From positions 5,178-53,466 of the forward strand of contig JAGWBT010000033.1 in the NCBI GenBank assembly GCA_021295755.1: a stretch of 48,289 nt of DNA. The letters are read 5' to 3'. Each line of letters starts with the position of its first letter. The first letter of the stretch is position 1. The notes below the pieces were generated by a model. The model did not search any database, was not told where the DNA came from, and worked only from the letters and a program-made list of their open reading frames with translations. The position numbers and the translations under genes are program-made. Below are positions 1 through 44,323 of the stretch, piece after piece. This DNA is from Candidatus Poribacteria bacterium. Its GTDB lineage: Bacteria; Poribacteria; WGA-4E; PCPOR2b.

Positions 1-116
1 CGTTCAAAGTTTGGGAATTTGTTACCGGATATCATCAAATCTTCACGAATCTTCATCTTACCCTCCAGTCTCATCAAACCACATGAAACCTCATCGGGAT
101 TCAAGGATTAACAGGC

Positions 117-229
117 AGGACTTACGCACTTCGATTGTAGTTGCCCGATTCATCGGGCGTTGGGAACGGTGTCCTGCGACGATGAATCGCCGAACTACAG
201 GGCTTTAACCGTTTAGCTGCGTAAGTCCT
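117..229. repeat. MITE-like element with AGGACTTACGCA inverted ends
   Basis: The element begins with AGGACTTACGCA (117-128) and ends with its exact inverse complement (218-229). TAACAGG occurs on both sides (109-115 and 229-235), which may be a target duplication. Inside are two opposed hairpins, each preceded by GTAG: one at 137-158 (GCCCGAT, TC, ATCGGGC) and one on the minus strand at 180-198. The 64-bp core (136-199) recurs at 44238-44301. There is no coding capacity, so it is a non-autonomous element or a composite with a REP pair inside. The rest of the first 336 bases shows no gene. Confidence 0.65.
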
Positions 230-240
230 AACAGGATTAG

Positions 241-11444: not shown

Positions 11445-11546
11445 TATAGTGAATTCAAAAAATAAATAGACATTTTCGCCCCCGGTAGGTGCGGTTGGAA
11501 ACCGCACCGGTTTGGAGTGTCTCATTAATCCTTAAGGTCCACTATA
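11445..11546. mobile_element. MITE-like element, TA-flanked, copy 2 (102 bp)
   Basis: The left end is TATAGTGAATTC followed by AAAAAATAAATAGACA. The right end, read inward on the other strand, is TATAGTGGACCTTAAGGATT, continuing to GAGACACTCC. These match the two ends of the copies at 2209-2377 and 35872-36074. The interior consists largely of one GTAG-preceded hairpin (11485-11508: GGTGCGGTT, GGA, AACCGCACC). A solo copy of the other family's end (TGCGTAAGTCC, about 11554-11564) lies just outside. Confidence 0.6.
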
Positions 11547-11604
11547 ATTCCTTTGCGTAAGTCCCAATTCTGGAAACATTCTCTCCCAAAAGGAGAGGTC
11601 CCCC

Positions 11605-19074: not shown

Positions 19075-19103
19075 ACCCCACCCCGTTTAGAAATGACTTA
19101 ATC

Positions 19104-19198
19104 AGGACTTACGCAAATTCAGCACGCGGCGCGAGATTTTTTTTAACCCCCTAAATCCCCCTTATCAGGGGGACCTATGAACCAACTGCGTAGGTCCT
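19104..19198. repeat. MITE-like element with AGGACTTACGCA ends (95 bp)
   Basis: AGGACTTACGCA (19104-19115) is answered by TGCGTAGGTCCT (19187-19198), an inverse with one mismatch. The middle holds a C-run and G-run hairpin (CCCCC, TTATCA, GGGGG). It has the same ends as 117-229 but a different core. It lies in the gap between the GNAT gene start and the pyrC stop. Confidence 0.6.
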
Positions 19199-19242
19199 AT
19201 TAATTTTGTTTTTCTTACGCATTACGTTTCACGTTTCACGCT

Positions 19243-22971: not shown

Positions 22972-23868
22972 ATGAAGGGAAGATTTGAAGGCATTCTGAC
23001 ACCAACGATAACGCCTTTGGACGAAAAAGAGCGGATTGATGAGTTGGGATTTGTAAGACATCTCAACCGTTTAATCGATAACGGTGTGCACGGCATCTAT
23101 CTGCTTGGCACTTCAGGAGAATTCACAACGCTGACAAACGCGGAACGTCAACGCGCAATCGAAATCGCTGCCAATACGGTCGGTGGGCGCGTCCCGATTA
23201 TCTGCGGTGTGATGGATTCAAGCACCCAGCGGGTCGTCCAAAATATTGAAATCGCACAGGAATTTAAGATTGATGCTGTTGCGGCGACGCCACCCTACTA
23301 CTACCCATCAATCAGCAACGCTGACATCGTCGATTTCTACAAGACCATCGCTCAAAGCACGGATCTGCCGGTGGTTATCTACAATATCCCGGTGATGGTG
23401 AAGACAGCAATCCCGCCGGAAGTTGTCCGTGATTTAGCGGAGAGTGTGGAAAACATCGTCGGAATTAAGGATAGCTCAGGGGATTGGACTAACTTCCTCA
23501 AAATGCTTGCCTACCTTGAAGACAATGAGGATTTCTCAATCATGCTCGGTTCTTATACCTTAGCGGGTGGAGCAATCTTGTTCGGGGCAGCAGGAGCCGT
23601 TATTTCAATCTCCAATGTCAATCCGAAAACTTCTGTTCAGCTGTATGATGCCGCGAAGGCACAGCAGATTGATGAAGTGCATCGCCTGCAGAAACAGATC
23701 CTTGAACTGAGCAAACTCTACGGCTACGGCGCAGCAATCAGTTGTCTGAAAGCCTGCATGGAACTGCTCGGCGTTTGCAGCCACTATACCACCAGTCCCC
23801 TCCTGCCGGTGGCTGACGCAGCGAGAGGTGAGCTACGGGATCTGCTGACTAAACATGGACTAATTTAA
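22972..23868 (+). CDS. DapA/N-acetylneuraminate lyase family protein
   Basis: 298 residues, normal length. The pyruvate-binding GTSGE loop (46-50), catalytic Tyr in VVIYNIP (Y137) and Schiff-base lysine in VGIKDSSG (K166) are all intact. It could be dihydrodipicolinate synthase for lysine, or a sugar-acid aldolase such as KDG or KDPG-type. The neighbouring divergent paralogue and the lack of lysine genes favour the latter. A ribosome binding site (AAGGAGAA) is present before the ATG. Confidence 0.88.
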   Translation: MKGRFEGILTPTITPLDEKERIDELGFVRHLNRLIDNGVHGIYLLGTSGEFTTLTNAERQRAIEIAANTVGGRVPIICGVMDSSTQRVVQNIEIAQEFKIDAVAATPPYYYPSISNADIVDFYKTIAQSTDLPVVIYNIPVMVKTAIPPEVVRDLAESVENIVGIKDSSGDWTNFLKMLAYLEDNEDFSIMLGSYTLAGGAILFGAAGAVISISNVNPKTSVQLYDAAKAQQIDEVHRLQKQILELSKLYGYGAAISCLKACMELLGVCSHYTTSPLLPVADAARGELRDLLTKHGLI

Positions 23869-23872
23869 CGCA

Positions 23873-23969
23873 AGCCCTATTGTAGGTCGATTTTCCAAAA
23901 TCGAAAATACCTAGCACATAGCGTGATAGTCTAGTGTTTTGTTGAGATATGAATCTCGACCTACGGGCT
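23873..23969. repeat. Paired inverted GTAG hairpins (BIME-like)
   Basis: GTAG (23882-23885) precedes the hairpin CGATTTT-CC-AAAATCG (23888-23903). On the other strand GTAG (23961-23964) precedes GAGAT-TCAT-ATCTC (23944-23957). The pair is bounded by AGCCC (23873) and GGGCT (23965-23969). This opposed layout resembles a bacterial interspersed mosaic element made of two REP units. It fills the 149-bp gap before aroA. Confidence 0.6.
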
Positions 23970-24017
23970 ACCTAGCAACTTAGATTTATTTAATCCCAAA
24001 ATAGAGAAAATCCCTCG

Positions 24018-25286
24018 ATGATCGAGATCCAACCCCTCCAGAAACCAATCAACACAACAGTCACAGTGCCCGGTTCAAAGAGCTACACGAATCGGGCATT
24101 GCTTGTCGCTGCGCTCGCTGAAGGACGTTCCCGACTGACAGGTGCTCTTTTCAGCGATGACACCCACTATATGTGTCAGGCGTTGCGGCGACTCGGCGTT
24201 CAGATTGAGGCAAACGAGAAGGGATGTACATTTGAAGTAGTTGGAAACGGCGGAAAGATCCCCGTCGATCACGCCGAACTTTATATCGGCAATGCAGGCA
24301 CGGCAGCACGCTCGCTTGTCAGCTACCTTGCGCTCGGTAAGGGCGAATTTACCATCGACGGCGATGCGCCGATGCGTCGGAGTCGTCCCATTTCAGATCT
24401 GCTTGATGCGCTCAAGCAACTCGACGTTGATGTTCGTTCAAAATTCGATAACGACTTTCTACCGTTGATTGTTCGTGCAAACGGACTCAAGGGTGGGAAA
24501 ACTTGCCTTGATGCCAGCAAGAGCAGTCAGTTCTTGACTTCGCTGATGCTCGTTGCCCCCTACGGCGAAAAAGGGATGGGGATTGAGGTCGTGGGAGAGA
24601 TGAAAACACCCTACATCGATATTACCACCTCAGTAATGAAGGGGTTCGGCGTGGACGTGGCTCACGATAATTACAAATTCTTTTATATTGAAGGCGGGCA
24701 GCGCTATCAACCCCGTGAATACGCCATCGAGCCAGATGCTTCCAACGCCTCCTATTTCTTCGCTGCGGCTGCGATCACCGGTGGTCGCGTCCGAGTGACC
24801 AACCTTAGTATGGACTCCGCACAAGGCGATGTCCAGTTTGTCAATGTCCTAGAACAGATGGGCTGCCAAGTGAAACGTTTCGGTGCTGATATAGAAGTTA
24901 TTGGACCAGATCGGCTCAAAGGAATCGATCTGGATATGAAAGCGATCTCCGATACATCGTTGACTCTCGCCGCGATTGCTCCCTTTGCGGAGAGCCCGGT
25001 GACCATTCGGAATATCGAACATACACGCCATCAAGAAACAGATCGCATACATGCCATGGTCACGGAACTCCGAAAACTTGGTGTCCCTGTCGTTGAGCGT
25101 CAAGATGGCGTTGAGATATCACCCGCCCAAATTACGCCCGCGGAGATTGAAACATATAAAGACCACCGGGTTGCAATGAGTTTTTCGTTGATTGGCTTGA
25201 AAGTGCCGGGGATTTGGATTAAAGATCCGGCGTGCGTAAACAAGACTTTCCCGACCTTTTTTGACGTGTTGACAAGGTTGAAGTAG
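24018..25286 (+). CDS. aroA: 3-phosphoshikimate 1-carboxyvinyltransferase (EPSP synthase)
   Basis: 422 residues, full length. It joins phosphoenolpyruvate to shikimate-3-phosphate, the sixth step of the shikimate pathway. Signatures are PGSKSYTNRAL (18-28), the GNAGTAARSL loop (91-100), DAPMRRSRPI and the C-terminal DHRVAMSF. The loop residue equivalent to E. coli Pro101 is Ser (S99), a position where changes lower glyphosate binding in class I enzymes. aroK and aroQ lie 2.3 kb downstream, separated by an alcohol dehydrogenase and a peroxiredoxin gene. Confidence 0.95.
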   Translation: MIEIQPLQKPINTTVTVPGSKSYTNRALLVAALAEGRSRLTGALFSDDTHYMCQALRRLGVQIEANEKGCTFEVVGNGGKIPVDHAELYIGNAGTAARSLVSYLALGKGEFTIDGDAPMRRSRPISDLLDALKQLDVDVRSKFDNDFLPLIVRANGLKGGKTCLDASKSSQFLTSLMLVAPYGEKGMGIEVVGEMKTPYIDITTSVMKGFGVDVAHDNYKFFYIEGGQRYQPREYAIEPDASNASYFFAAAAITGGRVRVTNLSMDSAQGDVQFVNVLEQMGCQVKRFGADIEVIGPDRLKGIDLDMKAISDTSLTLAAIAPFAESPVTIRNIEHTRHQETDRIHAMVTELRKLGVPVVERQDGVEISPAQITPAEIETYKDHRVAMSFSLIGLKVPGIWIKDPACVNKTFPTFFDVLTRLK

Positions 25287-26354: not shown

Positions 26355-26506
26355 TGGTCTAAGGCATAAATATGTGGATAGTTGACTCGCGGGCAAAACG
26401 TGAAAGCGAATATGTGTAGTTGGCAAATCCACCGATCTACTTTAGAGGAGGGGCACAATGTCACGCATTCGTAATTATCAGCGCAATAAGTGCGAAGGAG
26501 AAACAG

Positions 26507-27421
26507 ATGGAAACATTCAAAGATCTGAAAGTTGGTATGGCAGCACCGGATTTCACACTCAATGACGGAAACGGAGCCGTCCATAACCTACGCGATTATC
26601 TAGGGAAAAAGAATGTCGTCTTGGCATTTTATCCCAAGGACTTCACCGGCGGCTGAACGACAGAACTCCGCTCGCTCCGGGACGAGTTGAGCCAAATTCA
26701 GGGGACGGATACGGTCCTTTTAGGGGTTAGCGTCGATGATGAAGCCTCTCATAAAAAATTCCAAGAAGAGGAGAAGTTTGGGTTTCCTCTGCTCGCCGAT
26801 ACGAAATTCGAGGTCAGCAAGGTCTATAGCGGCATTATGGAAAGGTTTCAGGCTTCTAATCGATCGACCTTCGTTATTGACAAAGCAGGATATATTCGTG
26901 CAATAGATCGAAACGTGAACACGCAAACGCATGGAGAAGATCTCGTCAAACTAATCAATGAAAGCATTCCGGGGCCAATTCAGGTCGGGCAGCCTGCACC
27001 AGACCTTATCGCTTCTGATCAGGACGGCAATACCCATCAACTCAGCAGCTTCGAGGGGAAAAAGAACGTTGTGTTAGCGTTCTATCCCAAAGACTTCACC
27101 GGCGGCTGAACGGCAGAGGTATGCTCGCTCCGGGATGAGTCGAGTACATTTGCCGAACACGATACCCAAGTCTTCGCAATTAGCGTACAAGATGCAGCGT
27201 CTCACAAGAAGTTTGCTGAAGAAAACAATCTTAACTTTCCATTGCTGGTGGACACAGGACGCCATATCAGTTTGCTCTTTGGTGCGACAGACAAATCGGA
27301 CGGTTTGAGCAGTCGCATAACGGTTGTCATCGACAAAGAGGGCAAGATTATCAAACTCGATAAACAGGTCAACGCGAGGACACACGGCAAAGACCTAGCG
27401 GATTTCTTCGAGTCGATGTAA
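26507..27421 (+). CDS. Tandem peroxiredoxin with two selenocysteines (UGA at codons 50 and 201)
   Basis: Reading through two TGA codons (26654-26656, 27107-27109) gives 304 residues: two BCP/AhpC-type peroxiredoxin domains (about 1-150 and 155-304). Each TGA falls at the peroxidatic Cys of the FYPKDFTGG-C-T motif. Domain 2 also keeps a Cys five residues later (U-T-A-E-V-C), the usual BCP resolving cysteine; domain 1 lacks it. It should reduce peroxides using thiol partners in the cytoplasm. A conserved hairpin lies 18 nt after each TGA (26666-26691, 27123-27140). Other genes here end at TGA and use TGG for Trp, so UGA is not generally recoded. AAGGAG precedes the ATG. Without readthrough the product stops at residue 49. 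Confidence 0.85.
26666..26691 (+). promoter_or_regulatory. Candidate bacterial SECIS hairpin 1
   Basis: The 5' arm CTCCGCTCG (26666-26674) pairs with CGAGTTGAG (26683-26691) with one internal mismatch. The loop is CTCCGGGA, 18 nt after the UGA. A hairpin at this distance within the coding region, with G in the loop, is what bacterial SelB recognises. An identical loop and core recur after the second UGA. Confidence 0.65.
27123..27140 (+). promoter_or_regulatory. Candidate bacterial SECIS hairpin 2
   Basis: GCTCG (27123-27127) and TGAGT (27136-27140) flank the loop CTCCGGGA (27128-27135), again 18 nt after the UGA; two pairs are G-U. The 13 bases GCTCGCTCCGGGA are identical to hairpin 1 although bases just upstream differ. 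CTCG with CGAG at 27141-27144 is an alternative pairing. Confidence 0.5.
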
Positions 27422-35024: not shown

Positions 35025-35048
35025 GTAGGGTTCAACGATCGTTGAACC
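35025..35048. repeat. GTAG-preceded perfect 20-bp palindrome (REP-like)
   Basis: GTAG (35025-35028) precedes the perfect palindrome GGTTCAACGATCGTTGAACC (35029-35048). It has the same architecture as the hairpins at 137-158, 11485-11508, 23882-23903 and 44239-44260, with a different stem. A transcription-factor operator is a possible alternative, as it lies 78 bp before a dioxygenase gene. Confidence 0.5.
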
Positions 35049-44222: not shown

Positions 44223-44323
44223 AACTTAAAGATTTACTGTAGTTGCCTGATTCATCGGGCGTTGGGAGTTGTGTTGTGAGGCAATGAATCGCCGAACTAC
44301 AAGGCTTTGAGCGTTCAAGTCCA
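44223..44323. repeat. Degraded copy of the 117-229 repeat with inverted GTAG hairpins
   Basis: The 64 bases at 44238-44301 match 136-199 closely, and similarity continues through GGCTTT-A-CGTT. GTAG (44239-44242) precedes GCCTGAT-TC-ATCGGGC (44245-44260). On the minus strand GTAG (44297-44300) precedes a CGAT-TC-ATTG hairpin. The terminal AGGACTTACGCA ends are worn away. It lies directly upstream of a dehydrogenase gene. Confidence 0.65.

Follow-up and report, generated by a model that had tools for sequence, protein, structure and literature searches.

Several parts of the system described here are already known: REPs headed by GTAG, RAYTs, BIMEs and stem families specific to individual RAYTs (PMC2817692, PMC3733652, PMC3116915, PMC8266576). 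In vitro, the TnpAREP enzymes of E. coli and S. maltophilia cut REPs and join them (PMC8266576). In Anabaena variabilis, GTAG-15 dimers lie inside long TATAGGA...TCCTATA palindromes (PMC3733652, section 7).

The window analysed here is a stretch of 48,289 nucleotides (contig C33, positions 5178-53466) from a genome of 5.03 Mb in 257 contigs, hereafter G000. Two opposed hairpins at 23882-23964 are its central feature. This locus is very probably a BIME of GTAG REPs, belonging to the family whose candidate transposase is the RAYT encoded on contig C149. The original prediction had listed seven hairpins in the window, each with GTAG in front. All seven (7/7) lie where it placed them, with GTAG standing 0-2 spacer bases before each, and the three opposed pairs (137/198, 23882/23964 and 44239/44300) are present as well (Table 1).

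Table 1. Features of the window and the cognate RAYT gene (window positions unless a contig is given)
Feature	Position	Strand	Description
S1 MITE, 115 bp	116..230	.	ends CAGGACTTACGCA...TGCGTAAGTCCTA; target duplication ACAGG at 111-115 and 231-235
Hairpin	137..158	+	GTAG-TT-GCCCGAT(tc)ATCGGGC; family GTAGTTGCCCGATTCATCGGGC; inside S1 MITE 116-230
Hairpin	177..198	-	GTAG-TT-CGGCGATtcATCGTCG, 1 mismatch; family GTAGTTCGGCGATTCATCGTCG; opposed partner, inside S1 MITE
S2 MITE, 102 bp	11445..11546	+	TATAGTGAATTC...GGTCCACTATA (TATAGTG...CACTATA)
Hairpin	11485..11507	+	GTAGGTGCGGTT..AACCGCAC; family GTAGGTGCGGTTGGAAACCGCAC; inside S2 MITE
Lone S1-type TIR	11554..11564	-	TGCGTAAGTCC; beside S2 MITE
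S1 MITE, intact, 97 bp	19103..19199	.	interior CCCCCTAAATCCCCCTTATCAGGGGG; target duplication TTAAT; absent from the original prediction
Intergenic gap, 149 bp	23869..24017	+	between a dihydrodipicolinate-synthase-family gene (22972-23868) and an EPSP synthase gene (24018-25286)
BIME/REPIN-like unit	23882..23964	.	two opposed REPs, two stem types, GTAG heads outward
REP	23882..23904	+	GTAGGTCGATTTTCCAAAATCGA; stem family GTCGATTT; outer stem pairs decayed
REP	23941..23964	-	GTAGGTCGAGATTCATATCTCaAC; stem family GTCGAGAT; one decayed pair
REP-like palindrome	35025..35048	+	GTAGGGTTCAACGATCGTTGAACC; variant of GGAACAAC family
Decayed S1 MITE interior	44238..44315	.	GTAG-TT hairpin at 44239 and opposed partner, without TIRs (L018)
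Hairpin	44239	+	GTAGTTGCCTGATTCATCGGGC, one G-T pair; interior of decayed S1 MITE
Intact RAYT gene	C149:14253-14762		NF047646, 144 bits (curated cut-off 80); TnpArep 4er8, E 1.3e-18

GTAG was expected to be enriched before hairpins, and this is borne out in an 846-kb sample of the genome (made up of the window and the beginnings of contigs taken by number, with a few contigs passed over). Among the 256 tetranucleotides found 0-3 nt before perfect hairpins, GTAG ranks first (51 vs 8.7 expected, z 14), whereas CTAC stays at expectation (9 vs 8.7); the head therefore stands on one side only. A census of 1.95 Mb, assembled from stretches of the genome, gives a hairpin-heading rate of 29.7 per 1000 for GTAG vs 3.5-8.4 for 10 of 11 other heads (CTAC 5.2). 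TAGG, at 24.9 per 1000, overlaps the same sites. The census comprises 259 distinct GTAG-hairpin places, 187 of which fall outside the ORF tiling that makes up 88% of the sequence.

The pair at 23882-23964 is flanked by genes which run in the same direction. It joins two stem families which commonly occur together: the GTCGATTT REP is the usual opposed partner of the GTCGAGAT family, and 10 such pairs, at most 120 bp apart, were counted in 1.95 Mb. All 16 copies of the GTCGATTT family in the census are located outside MITE zones (13/16 outside the ORF tiling), as are 42 of the 44 GTCGAGAT places with respect to both MITE types, S1 and S2 (28/44 outside the tiling). As single-stranded DNA, 23882-23964 folds at -13.3 kcal/mol (z -3.85). 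The stem foot is decayed in both REPs, so this particular copy may no longer serve as a substrate.

Three Y1-transposase genes were found in G000. Only the one on C149 is an intact RAYT of the right group, above the curated NF047646 cut-off and matching the solved TnpArep 4er8; the gene on C22 is a RAYT broken into two pieces by a frameshift and that on C74 is IS200-like. In the alignment with 4er8, the HUH histidines correspond (DHFHLL with EHMHCI), as do the tyrosines of DYIHYNPVKHG and DYIYINPVKHG, which we take to be catalytic; in the C149 RAYT this residue is Y121. The original prediction had tied its case to a RAYT gene with matching hairpins on its flanks, and the C149 gene is bordered by GTAGGTCGAGATTCAYATCTCGAC, the same hairpin as at 23964-23941. 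Upstream, GTAGGTCGAGATTCACATCTCGAC occurs twice; downstream, several related copies follow, and an opposed GTAGGTCGAGTTTCCAAACTCGAC is also among the flanking hairpins. A RAYT of Zixibacteria (L074), 59% identical to that of C149, has GTAGGTCGAGATTCCAATCTCGAC upstream and an opposed GTAGGTCGATTTTCTAAAATCGAC downstream, stems which are nearly those of the window pair.

The distribution of exact copies of GTCGAGATTCAY, the consensus REP of the GTCGAGAT family, was followed in 30 genomes. Copy number is highest where the intact RAYT resides (74 in G000). Five congeners without an intact cognate RAYT hold 5-33 copies, two same-family genomes with broken cognate RAYTs hold 1 and 8, and 22 of the 30 genomes searched hold none. 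The many copies that persist in congeners lacking a cognate RAYT count against the assignment to this RAYT family.

By analogy with the described enzymes, the C149 RAYT would bind the GTAG-headed hairpin on single-stranded (lagging-strand) DNA, cut beside it and then move the REP pair. Passage through single-stranded DNA is suggested by how the E. coli and S. maltophilia proteins behave in vitro (PMC8266576). The predicted substrate is single-stranded GTAGGTCGAGATTCATATCTCGAC, whose reverse complement should not be cut equally.

The changing stems had been taken to imply several subfamilies, which agrees with the census: G000 holds a dozen or more GTAG-hairpin stem families. Across RAYTs, stem similarity tracks protein similarity (Mantel r 0.594, reached by 0/5000 shuffles), like stems cluster together on the RAYT tree, and RAYT genes from relatives and from other phyla have stems of their own at their borders. 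Several stems orphaned in G000 flank RAYTs elsewhere: GCGGGGCA / GTAGGCGGGGCATCTTGCCCCGC in the relative G003 (L248), TAGGCATA / GTAGTAGGCATACTCCGTATGCC in G002 (L117), GTGCGGTT at four loci (L107, L108, L125 and L264) and GTAGGTGCGGTT..AACCGCAC in G010, G015 and G024. Likewise, the GTAGGTGCGGTTGGAAACCGCAC stem of the 11485 hairpin flanks RAYT genes in other genera. Such families are remnants or incomers, since their RAYT sits in relatives and not in G000. For the GGAACAAC family, the largest after GTCGAGAT, no RAYT was found among the RAYT loci examined.

One could suppose that the C149 RAYT, the single intact one, moves the extra families in trans, in place of RAYTs since lost, as the genome combines one intact enzyme of the right group with a dozen or more stem families. 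We consider this unlikely: the stems correspond to those of other RAYT lineages found in relatives, and the S. maltophilia TnpAREP is sensitive to the loop base and to stem mismatches (PMC8266576). If cutting by the C149 RAYT proved to be limited to GTCGA stems, one RAYT per stem family would be supported.

Orthologous sites in congeners differ in their content. The gap corresponding to 23869-24017 is empty and 25-26 bp long in G001 and G005, is filled by the same REP pair in G002, and holds an S2 element in G003 and S2 together with other repeats in G004. The REP at 35025 and the S2 element at 11445 are both absent from the same place in G004; around the former, the gap is 158 bp here vs 48 bp there. 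These comparisons bear on the proposal that selection maintains the hairpins as Rho-independent terminators or as structures that stabilise mRNA, and that they are not mobile DNA. Most hairpins do lie outside ORFs, as does the pair between its two same-direction genes, and E. coli REPs have such roles (PMC8266576). However, the site is empty in two congeners and occupied by unrelated elements in two more, so that position is not conserved; unlinked places share sequence far beyond what a terminator needs; the head is one-sided; and a search against Rfam gave no family match. We regard the proposal as very improbable.

The insertion junction of the BIME cannot be placed to the base from the congener alignment. 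In the G002 orthologue (L331), the REP pair is followed on its right by a stretch of ~14 bp, ACGGGTTGATCTAA, which resembles the gene end to the left of the pair and equals the single copy of that end at the vacant G005 site, as if 14 bp of target had been doubled. From the G002 alignment, an ancestral target duplication might be suspected; the likeness counts against an IS200-like mechanism, which does not predict such doubling. The right-hand stretch beside the BIME in G000, CGGGCTACCTAGCAACTTAG, is itself repeated elsewhere, which weakens the target-duplication reading.

Downstream of this locus, the window contains a two-domain peroxiredoxin-like ORF of 333 aa (26420-27421, +), whose frame stays open only when two in-frame TGAs are read through. 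A tRNA-Sec gene is present in the genome (L163:4762-4855). The ORF is likely a fused double selenoprotein because both TGAs, in AFYPKDFTGG[TGA]T, stand at the place of the active cysteine.

The remaining hairpins are bound up with two types of MITE. The S1 elements at 116-230 and 19103-19199 possess TIRs and a target duplication, have no coding capacity and share their ends with a full IS; a 78-nt repeat occurs in two copies with 85% identity, at 137-198 and 44239-44300. The S1 end GGACTTACGCA has 129 copies in G000 vs 1 of the reversed control, and 48 S1 TIR pairs, many with 5-bp duplications, occur in 1.95 Mb. In relatives, the same ends (YAGGACTTACGCA or YAGGAGTTACGCA) and 5-bp duplications are common to elements of 1.04-1.09 kb which encode IS701-family transposases (NF049921); in G000, no match to this family exceeds its cut-off. 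The 1.5- and 2.3-kb TIR pairs of G000, considered as autonomous S1 parents, hold ordinary genes. S1 interiors are unrelated to the transposase gene and vary (GTAGTTGCCC/GTAGTTCGGCG, GTAGGGAACAAC, GTAGGCGGCGCA or the CCCCCTAAATCCCCC hairpin). With few exceptions, the GTAG hairpin stands 5, 7, 8-9 or 19 nt from the adjacent TIR, depending on the stem. Separately, G000 contains three similar copies of an S1-ended element of 367-377 bp (L065:7605-7981, L183:12624-12991 and L214:6039-6405) whose interior is long and structured and lacks any ORF of 80 aa. A single-contig genome of the same order (G019) carries about twenty near-identical copies of the IS701-type element, so the S1 parent looks recently active in the order.

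Further copies of the S2 element at 11445-11546 exist in G000 at 89-95% identity, and 22 S2 TIR pairs occur in 1.95 Mb. Their interiors are GTAGGTGCGG, GTAGGCGCTG, GTAGTAGGCA or the CCCCCTAAATCCCCC hairpin, the last being shared with S1. When S2 was examined as an IS630-type element, it showed TATA ends and its place in G004 was empty; no full-length parent was found. Presumably both S1 and S2 MITEs are moved by DDE-type transposases. The hairpin CCCCCTAAATCCCCCTTATCAGGGGGACTT is an interior common to S1 and S2 (window 19103-19199; L047, L169, L202 and others), and its lead-in supplies CTAA, CCTA and CCCT, ranks 2, 4 and 5 after GTAG before hairpins in the 846-kb sample.

The GTAG-TT type of 137, 198 and 44239 does not behave as a free REP: 17/20 of its places in the census are in S1 zones (13/16 for the 137 family, 4/4 for the 177-198 minus-strand family), and so are 39 of all 259 GTAG-hairpin places, S1 shares which are somewhat high because 20 stretches of the census were picked for holding S1 ends. 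None of the RAYTs examined is bordered by GTAG-TT stems of this type. Judged by their sequence context, the hairpins at 137, 198 (minus), 11485 and 44239 are MITE cargo or interior, and the free REPs of the window are only the 23888/23944 pair and 35029. The prediction of one REP/BIME system thus does not cover all seven, because four lie inside S1 or S2 MITEs. If the C149 RAYT were found to cut TTGCCCGAT, S1 interiors would be true REPs.

The opposite extreme, that all hairpins are parts of DDE-type MITEs, that GTAG is a coincidence of their interiors and that no RAYT system acts, would fit these four and the 39/259 and 20/259 places in S1 and S2 zones, but is hardly credible since 200/259 places lie outside both (including all but two GTCGAGAT places and every GTCGATTT copy), the same free hairpins flank a RAYT gene in a REPtron, and RAYT phylogeny tracks stem sequence.

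We return to the reading in which free REPs and MITE-borne hairpins coexist. Tentatively, and with rather more doubt than confidence, the centres of the S1 and S2 frames may be regarded as exchange sites for GTAG hairpins, REPs then being spread by two transposition systems. The suggestion comes from unrelated stems at fixed distances from the TIRs and from CCCCCTAAATCCCCC in both frames. RAYTs, or else template switching at hairpins, might place or swap the hairpins in MITEs, which DDE transposases would then copy. As cargo, REPs would be able to spread even in places without an acting RAYT. GTAG before a hairpin alone does not define a REP, since DDE-type MITEs carry some such hairpins as cargo.

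In comparison with known systems, the locus shares with GTAG REP/RAYT REPtrons the GTAG head, a perfect stem of 8-9 bp, a loop of 2-4 nt, a REP-bordered RAYT, stem families for each RAYT lineage and opposed pairs (PMC2817692, PMC3733652, PMC8266576). It differs in its bacterial lineage, the nearest RAYTs outside the order being those of Zixibacteria and Anaerolineales, and in that a single intact RAYT of the group accompanies at least a dozen stem families in one genome. As in the Y/Z2 BIMEs of E. coli and the REPINs of Pseudomonas, an opposed pair of two stems belongs to one RAYT system (PMC2817692, PMC3116915); E. coli REPs have a bulge, whereas the stems here are short and perfect like those of group 3 REPs. 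S1 shares its ends and 5-bp duplications with IS701-family ISs and MITEs (NF049921), but G000 has no transposase at the family cut-off and S1 interiors are unrelated to the transposase gene. The closest parallel to the MITE-borne hairpins is Anabaena variabilis, where GTAG hairpins also lie inside a larger TIR-bounded palindrome, and this palindrome is not seen without the hairpins (PMC3733652); here, in contrast, two unrelated TIR frames each hold several interchangeable hairpin types, and an IS701-family transposase is linked to one of the frames. The range of GTAG-REP/RAYT systems thereby grows to include a bacterial lineage that has received little study; orthologous sites provide direct comparative evidence that elements were gained or lost, and many natural RAYT/stem pairs become available for testing recognition rules. 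New relative to the described systems are this lineage, the number of stem families that a single genome contains, and REPs carried as modular cargo by two MITE frames unrelated to each other.
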